From Nitrososphaerota archaeon (GTDB lineage Archaea > Thermoproteota > Nitrososphaeria > Nitrososphaerales > Gagatemarchaeaceae), in assembly GCA_016200045.1 (NCBI GenBank), contig JACQFN010000018.1, positions 124,001 through 188,000 on the forward strand: a DNA stretch of 64,000 bases, given 5' to 3'. The notes below the pieces were generated by a model. That model did not search any database. It was not told the DNA's origin and saw only the letters and a list, made by a program, of their open reading frames with translations. Position 1 is the stretch's first letter; the number at the start of each line of letters is the position of its first letter. Position numbers and translations under genes: made by a program. Below, piece after piece: positions 21,807 to 56,987 of the stretch.

Positions 21807-22325
21807 CTACATCTTTCTGGACTGCCTGTAGAGGTCCCCAAGCAGGTTGATGTAGGGCTTCACCTCCACGAGGAAGTCGTCGAACTTTCCTCTTTCGAAC
21901 GTCGTCTGCCTGCCTCCGTCAGCCGCGAGCCTGGCTGCGAGCACAATCCCCCCGCTCCTCTCTGGGCTCTCCTTCAGCTTCGGGAAGTGAATGAGTGCCC
22001 CGTAGCCTGTCTTCTTTCCTCCCTTCGTGAACACGATGTTGTAGTACATGCTCAGTGTCTTTGTGAACTGTTCCATCTGCCTCTTCCGGCTCTCGCTCCT
22101 CTTGACGTTGTCGAAGTCGGCAGAGGCCAGCCTGTCGATCATTTCTTTGAGTATCTTCATCTCGCTCACCTTGCCGGTGTACCCCGCATATTCGATGGGC
22201 ATCTGGAATACGCTGTGCATCACGGAGTCCCAGTCGTCCAGGACGACGAACGTCTTTGTGTCGAGGTTCATCTCCCGTTTGAGCTCGTCCGAGAGAACGT
22301 CCTCGACAGTAATCTTCTTCGGCAC
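21807..22325 (-). CDS. Unknown conserved-looking protein heading the KEOPS operon
   Basis: No family is recognised. The 172-residue protein is soluble, mixed alpha/beta and charged. It has a helical segment EMKILKEMIDRLASADFDN, a basic patch KRSESRKRQMEQF, and a glycine/basic stretch TKGGKKTGYGALIHFPK. The GTG at 22325 is selected because a TATA element lies 25 bases upstream. The longer open frame reaches past that box into the divergent gene. It stands six bases before kae1 on the same strand, so a link to tRNA modification or translation is possible by context only. Confidence 0.6.
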   Translation of the reverse strand: MPKKITVEDVLSDELKREMNLDTKTFVVLDDWDSVMHSVFQMPIEYAGYTGKVSEMKILKEMIDRLASADFDNVKRSESRKRQMEQFTKTLSMYYNIVFTKGGKKTGYGALIHFPKLKESPERSGGIVLAARLAADGGRQTTFERGKFDDFLVEVKPYINLLGDLYRQSRKM

Positions 22326-22344
22326 GGAGTCCGTGGGGAAAGCG

Positions 22345-22356
22345 CATATAGTTATC
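22345..22356. promoter_or_regulatory. Shared TATA element for the KEOPS operon and the RNA-binding/Pop5 pair
   Basis: The sequence catatagttatc is centred ~25 bases from the GTG at 22325 (minus strand) and ~28 bases from the ATG at 22378 (plus strand), so it could drive both divergent operons as leaderless transcripts. Confidence 0.5.
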
Positions 22357-22377
22357 GATTGCGGACGGGAATCGACG

Positions 22378-22806
22378 ATGAAAGGCGCCATACAATCCCT
22401 CGAGGCATCCTACCACATCCATGCTACCGAGGACTTTGGGAAAGTCGGGGAAGCGGTATCGTCTCTTCTCGGGACTGACACGGAGCCCCGGGTCGCCGAA
22501 GCGGAGGGGCATTTCGGCAATGCCATACTCCAGGTGTCGTTTCATCTTACGGGGAATCAAGCCGGGACTGCGTTTACCCGGGTCGTGAAGTCGTTGTCCC
22601 CGCGCACAAGAGCAGAGATCCTTGCGGCCCTGGGCTCTTTCATGGACGAGCATTCCGCTCTCTACCTGAGGCTGGACAAGCAGGCCCTGGTCGGCGGAGC
22701 TTCCGAGCTCGCCCAGGCTGACACCATCAGGATCAAGGCAAAGCCGAGGCTCTTCTCGCTCAAGGGCGGAGCTTCGGATTTCTACAGGACCGCTTTGGAG
22801 GTGTGA
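22378..22806 (+). CDS. PF01877-type RNA-binding protein
   Basis: The 142-residue protein matches the archaeal RNA-binding domain family formerly called DUF54. It has HFGNAILQVSFHLTG, the helix RTRAEILAALGSFMDE, and the signature LYLRLDKQALVGG followed by ADTIRIKAKP. In many archaea this gene sits beside RNase P protein genes and exosome/proteasome clusters, agreeing with the Pop5-like gene that follows. The ATG at 22378 is 28 bases from a TATA box. The stop overlaps the next start (GTGA). Confidence 0.85.
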   Translation: MKGAIQSLEASYHIHATEDFGKVGEAVSSLLGTDTEPRVAEAEGHFGNAILQVSFHLTGNQAGTAFTRVVKSLSPRTRAEILAALGSFMDEHSALYLRLDKQALVGGASELAQADTIRIKAKPRLFSLKGGASDFYRTALEV

Positions 22807-23468
22807 AGACGGCCAAAAGGTACGTGCTGTTCGAATCCGACTCGGACCTATCGGAAGAGGAGTTCCAGGAGCTCGGGAGGGTGATCACCAAGAGGCACGG
22901 GGAGATGCCAATAATCGGTCTGGCGGCGAGTAGGCGGGCGATGATAGTGAGGACCACTGCGGAGGTCGCGGCCCGGATGAGGGAACCGGAGGCTACGATC
23001 GACATTCGAGGGAAGACTGTGAAGACCGTGCTCGTATCCGGGGCCATAGGTAAGCTCAAAAAGAGAGCGGAGAAAGAGGGACGAGATAGATTGGCGAAGT
23101 TCCTCAGCGACGAGTTCTTCACCGAGTTTCAGTCTGCCCTCTCCCAGGACCAGAAGTGGGGGGAGAGCACAAAGGCCGTCAAGACGAGCATCGCGTTCGG
23201 GGTGACAGACACAGGGCAGAACTATGTCCTTAGCGTGGAGAACGGGACCACGCTCCTCCAGAAGGTCGCCCCAGGGACGTCGGCCGAGTTCTCATTTGAA
23301 GGGACCTACGAAACCTGGACGAAGGTGGTGAAGGGAGAGGTAGACCTTCAGTCGGCGGTGTTGAAGGGGCTCCTGAAGTTCAGGGGGTCGATCACGAAGA
23401 TACTCATGTACAGGGACAGGTTCATGAGAGTTGCGGAAATAATGCGGTCGGTCCCGAAAGAGTTCTAG
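22803..23468 (+). CDS. RNase P subunit Pop5-like domain fused to SCP2 sterol-carrier domain
   Basis: Residues 1-92 resemble archaeal Pop5/Rnp2, a protein subunit of RNase P. They show the opening KRYVLFESDSDLSEEE, the strand AMIVRTTAEVAARM and the family ending TVLVSGAIGKLKKRA. Residues ~97-221 resemble an SCP2 lipid-carrier domain, with TSIAFGVTDTGQNYVLSVEN, GTSAEFSFEGTYETWTKVVKG and LLKFRGSITKILMYRD. The frame is continuous with no stop between. A TTG at 23091 could give a separate SCP2 product, but the Pop5 part cannot terminate on its own. The gene overlaps the upstream RNA-binding gene (GTGA) and the convergent DUF35 gene by four bases. Such a fusion is not one I know. Confidence 0.7.
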   Translation: MKTAKRYVLFESDSDLSEEEFQELGRVITKRHGEMPIIGLAASRRAMIVRTTAEVAARMREPEATIDIRGKTVKTVLVSGAIGKLKKRAEKEGRDRLAKFLSDEFFTEFQSALSQDQKWGESTKAVKTSIAFGVTDTGQNYVLSVENGTTLLQKVAPGTSAEFSFEGTYETWTKVVKGEVDLQSAVLKGLLKFRGSITKILMYRDRFMRVAEIMRSVPKEF

Positions 23469-23896
23469 GCTTTCACGAAGACGTAGTAGGGGTTTCCTTC
23501 CTTGCTCGCCCTGAATTCTATCCGCATCGCCATGCCGAGCTTCGCGTCCTCGGGGCCGATTCCTTCAAGCCAGGCAAGCACCTTGAGCCCCTTCGCGAGC
23601 TCTCCTATCGCAATGATGTACGGGTCGTTCTCGACGAAGCTCGCCGGGGTCACCTGTACATAGGTGAAGGTCAGGAGCTTCGCATCTCGGCCGAGGTCGA
23701 CCCATTCGAATTCGCCCTTCATGCAGTTCGGGCAGTCGGCCTGAGGAGGGAATGAGACGTTCCCGCAGTTCTTGCACTTCGTCGTGATGAAGCGCCCGTC
23801 CCTCAGGCCGTCCCAGAACTCGCGGGTCCTCGAGATCGGTATATCGAACCTGAGGGTGAGCGGCCTTCTCGAGTGGAGCGCAGGGTCATCGGACAA
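23465..23896 (-). CDS. DUF35 zinc-ribbon/OB-fold acyl-CoA-associated protein
   Basis: The protein has an N-terminal helix followed by a rubredoxin-like zinc ribbon (CKNCGNVSFPP and CPNC) and a C-terminal OB-fold (LLTFTYVQVTPASF, AIGELAKGLKVLAWLEG). These proteins pair with thiolases or hydratases as accessory subunits that organise acyl-CoA chemistry, for example in HMG-CoA synthesis and steroid side-chain degradation. Its position four bases downstream of a thiolase strongly suggests a thiolase-DUF35 complex. The 143-residue length is typical. Confidence 0.88.
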   Translation of the reverse strand: MSDDPALHSRRPLTLRFDIPISRTREFWDGLRDGRFITTKCKNCGNVSFPPQADCPNCMKGEFEWVDLGRDAKLLTFTYVQVTPASFVENDPYIIAIGELAKGLKVLAWLEGIGPEDAKLGMAMRIEFRASKEGNPYYVFVKA

Positions 23897-23900
23897 AGGC

Positions 23901-25061
23901 CTAGCTCCTGGAAAGTATGGTGACGTATGCGTAGTGCCCGGTCCCCCCCACGTTGTGGACCAGGCCGACCCCGTTGCGGATTGGAGCTTGATGGGGGCCC
24001 GCCTCCCCCCTGAGTTGCTTGGTTATTTCGACGGCCATCGACACTCCTGTCGCCCCGATCGGGTGCCCCTTGGCCTTCAAGCCTCCGTCGAGGTTCACCG
24101 GTATTTTCCCCCCGACTTCGGTCTGGCCCTCCCTCACCATCTTGGCGCCCTCTCCCTTCTTGCAGAACCCGAGGTCCTCGTAGGCCATGAGCTCGGCGAT
24201 GGTGAAGCAATCGTGCGCGGTCGCCACGTCGACGTCCCCGGGGGCCACCTTCGCCATAGCGTACGCCCTCTTCGCCGCAGCCACCGTGGCTTCCAGTCCG
24301 ACGTAGTCGTTCCTCCTGCTCAGGTTCGCCGAGTCGGAGGAGTAGCCGACCCCCCTTATCCAGACAGGAGTGTCCGTCAGCTTCTTCGCCGCTTCTTCGG
24401 AAGCGAGTATCACCGCGGCAGAGCCGTCGGTCAGCGGGCAGGCGTCGTACAGCTTCAGGGGCCAGGACACGACCTGCGAGCCGAGCGCCTTCTCCAGAGT
24501 GATCTCTTTCTGGAACTGTGCGAGCGGGTTCATCGCGCCGTAGTGGTGCGCCTTGACGGCCACCCTCGACATGTCCTCCTCCTTGGTCCCGAACCGATTC
24601 ATGTGGGCGACTGCGTAGAGGGCGTAGTACGCGGGGAAGGTCATCCCGAAGTTCTCGAACTCCCACATATACGAGCCCGCCCGCCCTATGAGCTCGACCG
24701 AAGTCAGGGTGTCAACCTCGGTCATCTTCTCCACCCCCACAGCCATTGCGACATCGGTCTCCCCGCTGACTATGCTGTTGTACGCGGCCTTCACGGCCGC
24801 GCTCCCGCTCGCGCACGCAGCCTCGACCCTCATGGTCCCGACGGAGTTCAGACCTGCGTATTCGTTGACGATGACGGCGGGGAGGGACTCTTCGTACCAG
24901 CCACCCGCGCTCCCGACGACCACGTTCCCTATCTCTTTCCTGTCCACCTTGGCGTCCTCGACTGCCTGCTTGATCGATTCGAACGCCAGCTCGGCGACGT
25001 TCACGTCGGTCCTCTTCCCGAACTTCGAGTGACCAACCCCGACGATGGCGACCCTTGTCAT
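23901..25061 (-). CDS. Thiolase (SCPx/acetyl-CoA acetyltransferase-like)
   Basis: The thiolase-fold enzyme of 386 residues has the nucleophile C83 in VEAACASGSAAV and the C-terminal GHPIGATG motif. The third family motif is replaced by NVGGTGHYAYV, as in the archaeal SCPx-like subgroup that works with DUF35 partners. It either cleaves 3-ketoacyl-CoA or condenses acetyl-CoA. The surrounding degradation genes favour cleavage, while a role in the mevalonate pathway (acetoacetyl-CoA formation) is an alternative. The gene lies between the acyl-CoA dehydrogenase and the DUF35 gene with gaps of 4 to 10 bases. Confidence 0.88.
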   Translation of the reverse strand: MTRVAIVGVGHSKFGKRTDVNVAELAFESIKQAVEDAKVDRKEIGNVVVGSAGGWYEESLPAVIVNEYAGLNSVGTMRVEAACASGSAAVKAAYNSIVSGETDVAMAVGVEKMTEVDTLTSVELIGRAGSYMWEFENFGMTFPAYYALYAVAHMNRFGTKEEDMSRVAVKAHHYGAMNPLAQFQKEITLEKALGSQVVSWPLKLYDACPLTDGSAAVILASEEAAKKLTDTPVWIRGVGYSSDSANLSRRNDYVGLEATVAAAKRAYAMAKVAPGDVDVATAHDCFTIAELMAYEDLGFCKKGEGAKMVREGQTEVGGKIPVNLDGGLKAKGHPIGATGVSMAVEITKQLRGEAGPHQAPIRNGVGLVHNVGGTGHYAYVTILSRS

Positions 25062-25071
25062 CTGAGGGCGC

Positions 25072-26232
25072 TCACTGCCCGTCGAGGAGCTCCCTCGAGA
25101 GGATCCATCGCTGGACTTCCGAGGTCCCTTCGACTATATCAAGTATCTTCGCGTCGCGGAGGAATCGCTCAAGCGGGAGCATCTTGCTGACGCCGTAGCC
25201 GCCGTGGATCTGGATTGCCCTCTCGCAGACCCACACCGCTGTTTCGCTCGCGAAGTATTTCGCCATCGCCGCCTCTTTGATGAAATCTCCCCCCGAGCCC
25301 TGGACCGTAGCCGCGTAGTACGTGAGGAGCCTGGCGGCAGTAATCCTCGTCGCCATATCTGCTATCGTGAACCTCACCACCTCGTACTTCGCAAGCGGCT
25401 TTTCCGCGATGTGACGTTTGCTGACGTAAGAGATTGCTGCTTCCAGGGCCGCTTCCGCGATCCCGACGGCGGCCGCGGCCGCGCCTATCCTCGACTCGCT
25501 GAGAATCGCCAGAGCTATCAGGAAGCCGTCCCCCTCGTGCCCGATCATGTTGGAGGCCGGGACTCTACAGTCTTCGAACACGAGCTCCGCCGTCCCGGTC
25601 CCCCTCGCGCCCATAACCTCCAGCTTCTGCCCGACCCTGAATCCCTTGGTCCCCTTCTCGACCACGAACGCGGTGATCCCGGCTGCGCCGTCCTCTGCCG
25701 TCCCTGTCCTCGCGAAGAACACCAGGACATCGGCGACCAGCCCCTGAGTGATGAAGATCTTCGACCCGTTGACCACGTATGAATCGCCATCCCTGACGGC
25801 TCTTGTCGAGAGCCCTGCGGCGTCCGACCCCGAACCCGGTTCGGTGAGGCCGTACGCTCCGATCGACTCGCCCTTTACGAGCTTCGGAATGTACTTCGAC
25901 TTCTGCTCGGGAGTCCCGAACTTCGCGAATACGTTCCCGGCAAGGCCGTTCTGGACTCCGACGATAAAGCTCGCCGAGAGGCTGACCTTTGCCACCTCCT
26001 CCCCCACGATCATCGAACCTGTCAGGTCGAGGCCGAGCCCGCCGTATTCCTGGGGCATCGAGATCCCCAGCAGACCGTAGTCGCCCATCCGCCGCTGCAG
26101 GGCCAAGGGGTACTCGTCTGACCTGTCGATCTTGTCCGCCATCGGAAGGATCTCCCTGTTGGTGAACTCTCTGGCCCATTTCCGGAGGTCTTCGTGTTCC
26201 TTTTTGACGTGTATCTCAGGGAAGCTATCCAA
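25072..26232 (-). CDS. Acyl-CoA dehydrogenase
   Basis: This flavin-dependent acyl-CoA dehydrogenase catalyses the first oxidation of beta-oxidation, passing electrons to ETF or a similar acceptor. It has the substrate/FAD loop AYGLTEPGSGSDAAG, the middle beta domain, and the C-terminal catalytic glutamate E368 in DIVEGTSEVQRWIL. The length of 386 is standard. The start is a TTG at 26232. Chain specificity cannot be told. It is transcribed with the thiolase gene ten bases downstream. Confidence 0.93.
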   Translation of the reverse strand: MDSFPEIHVKKEHEDLRKWAREFTNREILPMADKIDRSDEYPLALQRRMGDYGLLGISMPQEYGGLGLDLTGSMIVGEEVAKVSLSASFIVGVQNGLAGNVFAKFGTPEQKSKYIPKLVKGESIGAYGLTEPGSGSDAAGLSTRAVRDGDSYVVNGSKIFITQGLVADVLVFFARTGTAEDGAAGITAFVVEKGTKGFRVGQKLEVMGARGTGTAELVFEDCRVPASNMIGHEGDGFLIALAILSESRIGAAAAAVGIAEAALEAAISYVSKRHIAEKPLAKYEVVRFTIADMATRITAARLLTYYAATVQGSGGDFIKEAAMAKYFASETAVWVCERAIQIHGGYGVSKMLPLERFLRDAKILDIVEGTSEVQRWILSRELLDGQ

Positions 26233-26286
26233 CGTCGGCCATATCCTTCAGGTAACCATCGTTTCCAGTGGAAGATAACCTTTCTG

Positions 26287-28275
26287 TTACTCGCCCTTGA
26301 ATTCGGGCTCTCTCTTCTCGAGCATGGCCGATATCCCCTCCGAGGCATCCTGCGTAGAAAGAAGGAGGCTGAAGACGGTCGCTTCGAAGACCTGCCCGAG
26401 GTCGGTAGGGACCTGGGTCGACATGTTTAGGGCTTGCTTCGCGAACTTCAGGGAAAGCGGAGGCAGTTTCGCCAGCTTTGTTGCGAATTCGGTGACCTTC
26501 AGGTCGAATTCCTGCTTGCTGAAGACCCGGTTCACGAGCCCGGCCTTCAGCGCCTCTTCTGCGGAAAGCCTCTGGGCAAGGAAGACCATCTCCTTCGCCT
26601 TCGGAAGCCCGACGATCTTTGGCAGGCGCTGGGTCCCCCCTGCTCCGGGTATGAGGCCGAGGCCGGTCTCCGTAAGGCCGATCTGGGCGTCGGCCGATGC
26701 GAGCCTGAAGTCGCAGGCGAGCGCGAGCTCGCACCCCCCTCCGAACGCCATTCCGTTTATCGCCGCGATGACCGGCTTCTCCATCCGCTCGACGACGGAG
26801 AATCCTTCGAACCAGTTCCGGGCGAAGTCGTAGACTTTCGAAGGGGTCGAGGCGCTGAAACTGGTCAGGTCGGCTCCTGCGCTGAAAGCCCGGTCCCCTT
26901 CTCCGCGGATGATCACGACCCGGATGGAACCGTCCTCGTCCAGAGACCGCAGGGCCGACACGAGCTCGTTGACGAGCTGCTGGGTGATCGTGTTGAGCCT
27001 GTGCGGCCTGTTCAGGACGACCCATGCAAGCGGGGGCGCCTTCCTCACCAGGATTTCATCCATGGTGGATGTTGAGGAGGGATAGTCGTAAAACCCTTTG
27101 CCGGCGTTGCGACCGACTCTTCCCGTTGAAACCATCTCCTTCAGCAGGAGGTCTGGGGCGTAGAACTCCCCGTGGGAGCGCCTTTTCGCCTCCAGAGACT
27201 CGACCACTCTGTCAACCCCCCAGGCGTCGGCCATCCGCAAGATCCCTTCGGGGAACCCTAGTCCGAGTCTGACCGAACGGTCTAGGTCCTCCATAGAGCA
27301 GACGGCATTCCGGATGAGCCACGCGGCGGCGTTGATCGCTGGCGAGAAGACTACGAGAGGGTCGGTGGACTTTCCGTCATCACTGCCTATCTTGGGGCGG
27401 TCCCGACCCCCCGCCTGGTAGGTGTAGAACCCCTCGCCTGTCTTGCGGCCGAGCTTCCCCTGTTCGAACTTGGCTTTGAACAGCGGGGCGACGAGGACGT
27501 TCGAAGGGTCGCGCGAACGGACCGCCTCACCGGCCTTGTAGATCGTGTCAATCCCGCTGTAGTCGGCCAGCTCGAAGAGCCCCATCGGGAGTCCGACGCC
27601 GTGGATGGCCATGGAATCGATCTGTGCGACAGATGCCTCTCCTCTGGTCACTTCCCAAGCGGCCTCGTTCAGGAGCGGGCCAAGGATCCTGTTGACTATG
27701 AAGCCAGGCACGTCCTTGTTGCAGACGACGACCGTCTTTCCGAACTTCTTGCCGAGAGAGACGGCATATGCGACCGCCCCGTCTCCTGTCTTCGGCCCCC
27801 TGATGACCTCGAGGAGGGGCATCAAGGGAGGCGGGTTGAAGAAGTGCATGCCTACGAAGTTGTCTTCCCTACGGGTCGAGGATGCGATTTCGCCAATGGG
27901 AAGCGTGCTCGTGTTCGATGCGAAGAGCGCACCCGGCGGCGCCAGTCGGTCGACCTCCGCGAACAGGTCTCGTTTCGTCCGGAGGTCCTCAGGGGCGGCC
28001 TCGACGACGATGTCTGCGGATCTCACTGCGTCTGACAGGACCAAGGTCCCGCGGATCCGGGCCATGGCAGAATCTGCCTGGGTCTTCGTGAGCGTCCCCT
28101 TCTCGGAGAACTTCGAAAGACTCCAGCGAATCTTTTCGAGGCCGGATGCAACGAACTCGTCCTTGATGTCGTAAAGCGTGACTTCGAAGCCTGCAATCGC
28201 CGAGACTTCCGCGATGCCGTGCCCCATGACGCCCGCGCCCAGGACGGAGAGCCGAGAGCCACCTACCGGTTCCAA
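26287..28275 (-). CDS. Bifunctional 3-hydroxyacyl-CoA dehydrogenase / enoyl-CoA hydratase
   Basis: The 662-residue fusion has an N-terminal NAD-binding 3-hydroxyacyl-CoA dehydrogenase (LGAGVMGHGIAEV, then HFFNPP and KDVPGFIVNRIL, plus a second C-terminal HCDH repeat). This is followed from about residue 408 by an enoyl-CoA hydratase (FSAGADL, GGGCELALACDF and ETGLGLIPGAGGTQRL, both catalytic glutamates present). The order is dehydrogenase first, as in Thaumarchaeota and Sulfolobales. It performs two middle steps of beta-oxidation. A crotonyl-CoA hydratase/3-hydroxybutyryl-CoA dehydrogenase role is also possible. Confidence 0.93.
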   Translation of the reverse strand: MEPVGGSRLSVLGAGVMGHGIAEVSAIAGFEVTLYDIKDEFVASGLEKIRWSLSKFSEKGTLTKTQADSAMARIRGTLVLSDAVRSADIVVEAAPEDLRTKRDLFAEVDRLAPPGALFASNTSTLPIGEIASSTRREDNFVGMHFFNPPPLMPLLEVIRGPKTGDGAVAYAVSLGKKFGKTVVVCNKDVPGFIVNRILGPLLNEAAWEVTRGEASVAQIDSMAIHGVGLPMGLFELADYSGIDTIYKAGEAVRSRDPSNVLVAPLFKAKFEQGKLGRKTGEGFYTYQAGGRDRPKIGSDDGKSTDPLVVFSPAINAAAWLIRNAVCSMEDLDRSVRLGLGFPEGILRMADAWGVDRVVESLEAKRRSHGEFYAPDLLLKEMVSTGRVGRNAGKGFYDYPSSTSTMDEILVRKAPPLAWVVLNRPHRLNTITQQLVNELVSALRSLDEDGSIRVVIIRGEGDRAFSAGADLTSFSASTPSKVYDFARNWFEGFSVVERMEKPVIAAINGMAFGGGCELALACDFRLASADAQIGLTETGLGLIPGAGGTQRLPKIVGLPKAKEMVFLAQRLSAEEALKAGLVNRVFSKQEFDLKVTEFATKLAKLPPLSLKFAKQALNMSTQVPTDLGQVFEATVFSLLLSTQDASEGISAMLEKREPEFKGE

Positions 28276-28318
28276 CCTTGTCCAGACGTTCGGGAGCCTT
28301 GTTAAAGGAGATGAAGGG

Positions 28319-29467
28319 TCACTGAACTACCCCCGCCTTCTTCAGTCTGGATGTCTGAGAAGCGGAGTAGCCCAGAGATTTCATGATCCGACCGGTGTGC
28401 TCTCCCAACTCTGGCGCGCGCGTGAAAGGCCCGGACCGAACCTCCGGAGACGCCTTGACGGGATTGTTCAGGATCTGACCGTCCCCGTCCAGGGAGAAGA
28501 GGAGTGAGCCAGCCTTTGCCCACTCGCTTCCCAGCGCTTCGTCCACCTCGAGGACCGGGGTCACGCAGGTGTCCTTTGACATCAGGCGGGATTCCCAATG
28601 GGCTCGGGGCCTGCCGGCGAAGATCCGGGTGAGCGTCCTGGCGACAACAGCCCTGTCGTCTTTCGTGCCGAACCTCTTCTGTTCGATCTCTGGGACCCCA
28701 AGCTCCCTGACGAGGTTCCTCCAGAATTCATGCTCTATCGCGGCGACCGCGACGCGCTTCCCGTCCGAGGTCCGGTACGTGTTGTAGTAGGGGGTGGACC
28801 CGAAGATGAGGCTGCTCCCCTCCGTCGGGGCCTCTCCAGTGGCGATATAGGCCGAGACCGGCATGACCATCCAGGAGAGTAGAGATTGGACGATCGGGAC
28901 GTCAATCCTGACCGCCTGACGCTTCTTCATTGCGAGCGCCCCGAGTATCGCGACAGCCGCGTACATGCCGGAGACCATGTCCCCGAGCTGAAGCTGCGGG
29001 ACGGAGCCGTATTTCCCGTAGGCGAGGGTCCCTGCCATCGCCTGGAAATTGACGTCGTGCGCCGGCATCGAACTGAGTCTGTCTCCCTGGCCGTAGGCAG
29101 AGATGGAGCAGTAGACAATCTTCGGGCTAACCCTCCTCACGTCAGGGAAAGAGAACCCGAGCCTCCCGATTGCGCCCGGCCTGAACCCCTCCACGAATAC
29201 ATCGGCGTCCTTCAGCAGTCTTCTCATCACCTGCTTTCCTTCGGGTTCTTTCAAGTCGATTCCGATGCTCAGCTTGTTCCGGTTGACCGTTTCATGCAGA
29301 GGGCTCCTCCCCTTCCTGGTCGGAGGGGTGGCCCGCATGTAGTCCCCCAGGCCCGGCTGTTCCACCTTGACCACTTCCGCCCCCATGTCCGACAGGAGCA
29401 TTGTGCAGTAACCTCCGGGGAGTAGCCTGGTCGCGTCAACCACTTTCAGGTCGTCTAGGAAGCCCAC
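28319..29467 (-). CDS. Family III CoA-transferase / alpha-methylacyl-CoA racemase-like protein
   Basis: The protein belongs to the CaiB/BaiF family, with the N-terminal LDDLKVVDATRLLPGGY, the CoA site MGAEVVKVEQP and RNKLSIGIDLK. At the active site it has H137-D138 in PAHDVNF and D163 in LQLGDMVSG, an arrangement like alpha-methylacyl-CoA racemases, although transferase activity is not excluded. The start is a GTG at 29467 with a TATA-like ctttattt about 27 bases upstream. It is the first gene of the leftward acyl-CoA cluster. Racemisation of 2-methyl-branched acyl-CoA would suit the thiolase, dehydrogenase and hydratase downstream (inference). Confidence 0.85.
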   Translation of the reverse strand: MGFLDDLKVVDATRLLPGGYCTMLLSDMGAEVVKVEQPGLGDYMRATPPTRKGRSPLHETVNRNKLSIGIDLKEPEGKQVMRRLLKDADVFVEGFRPGAIGRLGFSFPDVRRVSPKIVYCSISAYGQGDRLSSMPAHDVNFQAMAGTLAYGKYGSVPQLQLGDMVSGMYAAVAILGALAMKKRQAVRIDVPIVQSLLSWMVMPVSAYIATGEAPTEGSSLIFGSTPYYNTYRTSDGKRVAVAAIEHEFWRNLVRELGVPEIEQKRFGTKDDRAVVARTLTRIFAGRPRAHWESRLMSKDTCVTPVLEVDEALGSEWAKAGSLLFSLDGDGQILNNPVKASPEVRSGPFTRAPELGEHTGRIMKSLGYSASQTSRLKKAGVVQ

Positions 29468-55598: not shown

Positions 55599-56987
55599 TT
55601 ACTGTGGATACCCAGGATTCCAGGTTACGATATCTGCGACGTTGTCCCAAGTGCCAGCCAGTTCCCAAGTTGGGGTACCGCCCTCGTTCAATACCGTCCA
55701 GATGACGTAGGGCGCCGGCGCTCTGTCTCCGGCCGAGTTCAGCTCGGTCCAGCCAGTGACACCGAAGTAGTTGCTGGCGATAGAAGGTAGGACGCTTTGA
55801 ACGCATTGACCGTCGCTTGCGTTGCACGCTAGAATAGCGAGCGCGCCCACCCAGACGCTGTCGTATGCCTCAAGCGTATACGAGTCACACGCAGTGCTTG
55901 GCTGGTGGATTTGGTCTACGAACCTCGAACAGAAGTCCTGCAGCTTGGGAGTGTTCGGAGAACCGCCCCACAGAGTCGCAAGGATTCTCACCTGCGCCAT
56001 CAACGGTCCGACCGTGTCGTTGGCCGTGAGGACAGGGTCGTTCGCCGGGCCGTCTGTGCTGTACCAAGGTTGGGTTGTGTTCAGCAGTGGTTGGAATCCA
56101 GGCTGCGCATTGGCTTGGACGAGCATGTTCCCTATCTCCTCGAACGCTATGACATCGAATGCCACCTGGTCCGGAGGAAAGGTTGCCGTCGCTGCTGCCC
56201 ATGCGTCATTCATGGCAGTGAGGGTGGATGTGAAGTCGGTCGCATCCTGTGGATAGCTGATCAGTGTTGAGTTGCCGCCCAGTGCCGCGAAATCGGCAGC
56301 GGTTCCGTTGGCCAGAGCGCTCCCGTAAGAGTCCTGCCTGTAGACGATTATCAGGTCTCTAACCCCTTGCGTGTAGGGCATCCGGGCGTCGGCCTGGGCT
56401 TGGATTGTGTCGTTGGTCGGTAGCCTGTACAGGTAGTCGTTGGGTATTCCGAGCGTCGGAGCTGTGGAAGAGGGGCTAATCATCACGATGTGATGAGAAT
56501 TGGCCTCGTCCAGCAGGCCACCGGCGGTGCCGCTGTTGAGCGGTCCTACAACGACTGAAACCCCCTGGCCTTCCCACGTCTTCATGAGGTTAAGCGCGGT
56601 GGGGGTGTCTAGGTGGTAATCTCCTATTACGGCTTGGAACTGCAGGTCTCCCCTTCCGATGGAGGAGAGGTAGGCGTTGATGTCCTGGACAGCCATGATA
56701 GTCGAGGTGTTGACCCTCAAGCCTTCGCCTGAGAGGCCGTCGCTGAGGTCAGTCAAGACGCCGATGGGGACTGTGCCGGAGAGTTGCCCATTGATAGTGG
56801 TAGTCGCGGTACCGCCACCGCCTCCGGAGACGGTGACCGTCTTAGTGGAAGTGGAGCCTCCCGAGACCGTAGTTGTTGAAACTGTGCTTGATGGAGGGAC
56901 GGCGACGTAGGTTACGGCAGCGCCGATCAAGAGTCCAATGATCAGCAGGCCTACGGCACCTGATGTTGAAATACCAGTTCTGTGCAT
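55599..56987 (-). CDS. livK: Periplasmic-binding-type substrate protein LivK, membrane-anchored
   Basis: The 462-residue solute-binding protein of the branched-chain amino acid family starts with a hydrophobic segment (residues ~9-30, AVGLLIIGLLIGAAVTYVAV). A Thr/Ser/Gly-rich linker (STVSTTT and VSGGGGGTATT) follows, then a LivK-like binding domain (GVLTDLSDGLSGEG, VVVGPLNSGTAGGLLDEA and AYDSVWVGALAIL). There is no lipobox Cys, so it is probably tethered by the uncleaved membrane helix outside the cell. The ATG at 56987 lies ~32 bases after a shared TATA element. Confidence 0.9.
   Translation of the reverse strand: MHRTGISTSGAVGLLIIGLLIGAAVTYVAVPPSSTVSTTTVSGGSTSTKTVTVSGGGGGTATTTINGQLSGTVPIGVLTDLSDGLSGEGLRVNTSTIMAVQDINAYLSSIGRGDLQFQAVIGDYHLDTPTALNLMKTWEGQGVSVVVGPLNSGTAGGLLDEANSHHIVMISPSSTAPTLGIPNDYLYRLPTNDTIQAQADARMPYTQGVRDLIIVYRQDSYGSALANGTAADFAALGGNSTLISYPQDATDFTSTLTAMNDAWAAATATFPPDQVAFDVIAFEEIGNMLVQANAQPGFQPLLNTTQPWYSTDGPANDPVLTANDTVGPLMAQVRILATLWGGSPNTPKLQDFCSRFVDQIHQPSTACDSYTLEAYDSVWVGALAILACNASDGQCVQSVLPSIASNYFGVTGWTELNSAGDRAPAPYVIWTVLNEGGTPTWELAGTWDNVADIVTWNPGYPQ

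Follow-up and report, generated by a model that had tools for sequence, protein, structure and literature searches.

A Pop5-SCP2 gene fusion found in a single Nitrososphaerota genome, and a predicted promoter of SCP2 embedded in the Pop5 coding sequence

The window analysed here is a stretch of 64,000 nucleotides from a Nitrososphaerota archaeon, the genome assembly of which comprises 1.54 Mb in 25 contigs. ORF translation confirmed what had been reported in the initial annotation, namely that one frame of the plus strand (22803..23468) stays open and uninterrupted over 221 codons. The first gene of the operon (22378..22806, plus strand) lies directly upstream and codes for a COG1325-like RNA-binding protein of 142 amino acids, for which the proposed assignment to PF01877 was borne out with 84.4 bits. 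The GTG start of the long frame overlaps the TGA of this gene by 4 nt. Within the frame, a Pop5 (RNase P component 2) part (22803..23072), with the codons of its SG motif at 23037-23042, is followed by the linker EKEGRDR (23073..23090), where the Pop5 stop was lost, and by an SCP2 part (23091..23468). No second copy of the fused frame was detected in the genome, as the search of its own contigs returned the self match only. Among the 70 nt upstream of the PF01877 gene, the top-scoring site was a weak BRE/TATA-like sequence (GAAAGCGCATATAG, 22338..22351, plus strand, 5.2 bits) located 40 nt 5' of the ATG. A frame of 194 codons (21807-22391, minus strand), divergent to the operon, is kept in the relative L002 and gave no Pfam match; the true start probably lies within this frame, as the L002 counterpart begins with MPKKLTVED.

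The last 4 nt of the SCP2 part overlap a convergent DUF35 gene (zf-ChsH2 / OB_ChsH2_C, 23465..23896, minus strand), which is followed by a gene for a thiolase of 386 amino acids (Thiolase_N / Thiolase_C_1, 23901..25061, minus strand). This convergent pair, already recognised in the initial annotation, was confirmed by Pfam profiles. The thiolase belongs to a longer convergent run (23901-29467, minus strand) with acyl-CoA dehydrogenase-like, 662-aa hydroxyacyl-CoA dehydrogenase/enoyl-CoA hydratase-like and CoA-transferase-like frames. The run is a probable acyl-CoA degradation cluster; the profile searches covered the thiolase and the adjoining DUF35.

When searched separately with profiles, as proposed in the initial annotation, the two halves of the long frame behaved differently: the SCP2 half was matched by PF02036 and PF01900 remained silent on the Pop5 half. 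The SCP2 match reached 35.6 bits (cut-off 21.3) over residues 110-201 and covered positions 2-94 of the 101 in the profile, and structure matches were obtained in the PDB (1wfr, 2cx7). With the SCP2 sterol-carrier domain (PF02036) the match is full-length, and the gene stands beside thiolase and DUF35, as it does in the relatives, where it is a stand-alone gene in every case; the copy joined to Pop5 is found in the window genome only. At the position where SCP2 starts, an ATG is present in 37 of the 43 loci. The window carries a TTG there instead (23091-23093). The same TTG occurs in four sister loci (L031, L063, L069 and L072), which makes TTG 23091 a credible start. From the thiolase/DUF35 neighbourhood, SCP2 would be expected to serve the neighbouring acyl-CoA/thiolase genes.

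For the Pop5 half, neither Pfam nor NCBIfam gave a match when the window copy and 26 relatives were scanned. The PF01900 search does score control genomes and is thus functional; the single profile misses this family on account of its strong divergence. When a profile built from 27 N-terminal halves was compared with the PDB, the best three matches were archaeal Pop5 proteins (2czv, 3wz0 and 2av5; E-values of 0.0023, 0.0053 and 0.32, the first being the match to 2czv). Comparison by hhalign of the family with PF01900-positive Pop5 sequences from other families of the same order gave a probability of 97.1%. The AlphaFold model of the half (pLDDT 92.5) was used for a fold search in the PDB, in which the top seven matches were all Pop5, from archaeal RNase P and yeast RNase MRP, with TMq values of 0.56-0.61. 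By profile search, profile-profile comparison and fold search of the predicted model, the N-terminal half is a divergent Pop5, in agreement with the initial reading as a Pop5-type domain.

The near-universal residues of Pop5 are, in Pho numbering, R17, Y18, R71, S103, G104 and T105 (PMC4919917). Mapped through the profile, the first five are kept in the window as R6, Y7, R50, S79 and G80, and T105 is replaced by A81, a position that is mostly A or S across the family. At the position of R71, most relatives have K and the window has R. The window copy shares with archaeal Pop5 (PF01900; PDB 2czv, 2av5, 3wz0, 6k0a) the RRM-like fold, the R-Y of the N-terminal strand, the R of the middle strand and the S-G loop before the last helix, as well as its single copy and its place next to PF01877. 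It differs in being shorter, by about 25 residues with respect to Pyrococcus Pop5, in lying below Pfam detection, in having A for T after SG and in a C-terminus that runs into SCP2. The short domain, the replaced threonine and the silence of Pfam and NCBIfam for all 27 members would suit some other small RRM-like protein. Such an identity is nonetheless hardly probable, as the top profile and fold matches are Pop5 chains only, five of the consensus residues are kept, the gene adjoins PF01877 (near which Pop5 also lies in a sister-family operon), and the genome has RNase P RNA and further subunits without another Pop5.

RNase P RNA was found in the same genome with 191.5 bits, along with Rpp29 (44 bits) and Rpp21 (48.9 bits). 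For Rpp30, no match in the genome exceeded the Pfam cut-off, which does not by itself prove its absence. No second Pop5 was found in the genome by PF01900 or by sequence search, and Pop5 is taken as single-copy. Since these RNase P components are present and Pop5 is single-copy, the fused Pop5 is most likely the one used by RNase P. In archaea, an exosome/RNase P superoperon is known in which PF01877 neighbours an RNase P subunit. The window shares this adjacency, and so does a sister family (L033), where an Rpp30-like gene lies between PF01877 and Pop5; in the window, PF01877 and Pop5 are directly joined without Rpp30 between them and SCP2 comes after Pop5.

Relatives were searched in 201 genomes of the order, in 31 genomes of the genus and in a scan of GTDB contigs. 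This yielded 42 other loci with both genes, 28 from the same genus and 14 from the same family, in one of which the contig ends within Pop5. The gene order, PF01877, Pop5 and SCP2 facing DUF35 and thiolase, is constant across the family: PF01877 lies upstream in 41 of the 42 relatives, the remaining locus being cut off, and DUF35 and thiolase are kept in all 42. The fusion was encountered in none of them (0/28 in the genus, 0/14 in the family) and is not a conserved domain architecture; among the loci examined, it is private to one genome as judged from the sequences. The initial annotation had left two readings open. One of them, an accident of gene order that is now read through in frame, is favoured by the separate genes in 42 of 42 other loci. 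The other, a real multifunctional protein, is not supported, in view of the same counts and of the promoter-like element of SCP2 inside Pop5 described below. Two separate genes with a frameshift in related genomes had been named in the initial annotation as evidence against the fusion, and this applies by half: the genes are indeed separate, but their frames overlap and neither gene is broken.

The junction itself varies widely. In the loci of the same genus, Pop5 and SCP2 overlap by 1-23 nt and SCP2 is in the +1 or +2 frame. Across the wider family, the genes may be set apart by a few bases or may overlap by more than 50 nt. In two loci of the same family (L031, L063), both genes are in frame with a TGA between them. 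The Pop5 tail beyond LK[RK]RA is not conserved, so that its length and frame drift. In the window, the relative frame is 0 and there is no intervening stop. Insertion of one T (GATGG to GATTGG) as the sole fusion event was considered and rejected, because without this T the Pop5 frame runs stop-free until 23205. Prediction of the whole-chain structure, as suggested in the initial annotation, gave two folded domains connected by a joint of low confidence (pLDDT below 50 at residues 93-98). A search of the accessible literature for a link between Pop5 and SCP2 found nothing.

A shared function of the two domains in one real protein, for instance an RNase P tethered to a lipid or acyl-CoA state, would agree with the open frame, with the conserved cores kept in both domains and with the constant gene order over the family. 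Against it stand the absence of the fusion from every other genome examined, the short and unconserved linker, and the promoter-like element of SCP2, which argues for separate regulation. This reading of the fusion as a bifunctional protein was judged very unlikely. There is only the faintest chance that the cell makes and keeps the fused chain in such a way that the sole, presumably essential Pop5 carries SCP2 and a module for binding lipid or acyl-CoA is exposed on RNase P particles. If true, an SCP2 borne by RNase P could couple tRNA maturation to the acyl-CoA state.

An error of assembly or sequencing was weighed as a rival explanation. A TAG lies out of frame at 23087-23089, within the linker; if one base were missing from the 15-nt linker stretch 23073-23087, Pop5 would end at this TAG and SCP2 would be a separate gene from TTG 23091. 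The occurrence of the fusion in one genome only, the position of the TAG in a suitable alternative frame just 5' of the SCP2 start, and the in-frame stop shortly 5' of the TTG in two loci of the same family are in favour of such an error. Chance alone would nevertheless often place a TAG in one of the two other frames near the junction, and the lengths of DUF35 and thiolase are equal to those in L002. Over 146 kb of matched genes on the contig, frameshifts were found in one gene only; a second candidate proved to be an over-extended start, and the check detects shifts in conserved genes only. At this low level, an error in the given 15-nt linker is improbable (about 0.02%, or about 1% over some 60 junctions of the window). 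Overall, an error was considered improbable, yet it is the most serious of the alternatives. The one affected gene, S53-protease-like (L080, C24 at about 55,750-55,850), changes frame twice within about 90 nt with respect to the genus-mate G010, and is either a pseudogene or a site of local sequence errors.

A feature that the initial annotation had missed is that, across the family, the codons following the Pop5 SG motif (GGTAAGCTCAAAA) show hardly any synonymous change although the protein varies. A Gly codon is GGT in 29 of 29 cases as compared with 6% elsewhere in the same genes, a Leu codon is CTC in 36 of 37 (background 36%) and a Lys codon is AAA in 37 of 37 (background 13%). In 27 representatives with less than 65% Pop5 identity, GGT and CTC were the codons of Pop5 that deviated most from expectation. 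Some SCP2 columns were also raised, mainly Ser AGC and Arg AGG, which indicates that codon bias by itself yields moderate signals. The synonymously frozen stretch covers 23046-23063 in the window, with equivalent sites in L003-L031 and L063-L075.

A BRE/TATA matrix learned de novo on 165 other upstream regions of the window genome and of G010 was applied to this stretch. The learned motif (YAAMGCTTAAAT) consists of BRE plus TATA and reached a log-likelihood of 109.6, as compared with a maximum of 50.8 over 20 shuffles. The frozen block (GTAASCTCAAAA) scored 5.3-9.7 bits over the 43 loci, and every one of these scores exceeded the 97th percentile of operonic controls (4.8 bits). In the window, the promoter-like element (GTAAGCTCAAAAAG, 23050..23063, plus strand) scored 9.6 bits, a value attained at 6 of the 63,986 plus-strand positions of the window, and it includes a TATA-like sequence (CTCAAAAA, 23055-23062, plus strand). 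The embedded TATA, CTCAAAA, deviates at a single strong position from the CTTAAAT consensus. Across the loci, the TATA begins 31-42 nt 5' of the SCP2 start, a spacing from which leaderless or nearly leaderless messages are predicted. A programmed frameshift at a slippery site CTC AAA AGG was rejected as an explanation of the frozen codons, as the sequence is constant yet the frame of SCP2 relative to Pop5 varies (0, +1, +2); the promoter matrix fits. The embedded element agrees with the genome's own promoter motif in sequence and position and is conserved beyond coding need. SCP2 probably has its own predicted promoter inside Pop5. Promoters inside upstream coding sequences are known from haloarchaea, with BRE/TATA within the preceding gene. 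The present case shares this arrangement and differs in that the promoter was deduced, from sequence alone, by way of codons that stay synonymously invariant throughout an archaeal family.

The best explanation of the locus, and a probable one, is a lineage-private, near-neutral gene fusion, in which Pop5 and SCP2 were joined by drift of the junction. With frame 0 and no stop, any ribosome on Pop5 runs on into SCP2, and the PF01877-Pop5 message would yield a joined Pop5-SCP2 product of about 25 kDa. The two modelled domains with their low-confidence joint suggest that Pop5 can fold as usual; it would act in RNase P, and SCP2 would be a passenger tolerated at its C-terminus behind a flexible linker. 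From the internal promoter, a near-leaderless SCP2 message would give free SCP2 from TTG 23091, which would supply the adjoining acyl-CoA/thiolase cluster. The strength of the window copy of the promoter suggests that free SCP2 is probably still produced from this TTG; a near-leaderless message may initiate weakly at a TTG. A fusion by drift does not require any joint function of the two domains.

The observation is real and its parts were correctly read, yet what it shows is an ordinary accident and no new protein architecture. It provides a case of unrelated, merely overlapping genes that fuse through drift of an unconserved linker, and a caution that a domain fusion from a single genome is a poor guide to function. 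The embedded promoter, as predicted, is a more general result than the fusion. It would shield a downstream gene from within the upstream coding sequence, and the synonymous codons frozen across an archaeal family offer a case in which the use of one sequence for both coding and regulation can be tested directly.
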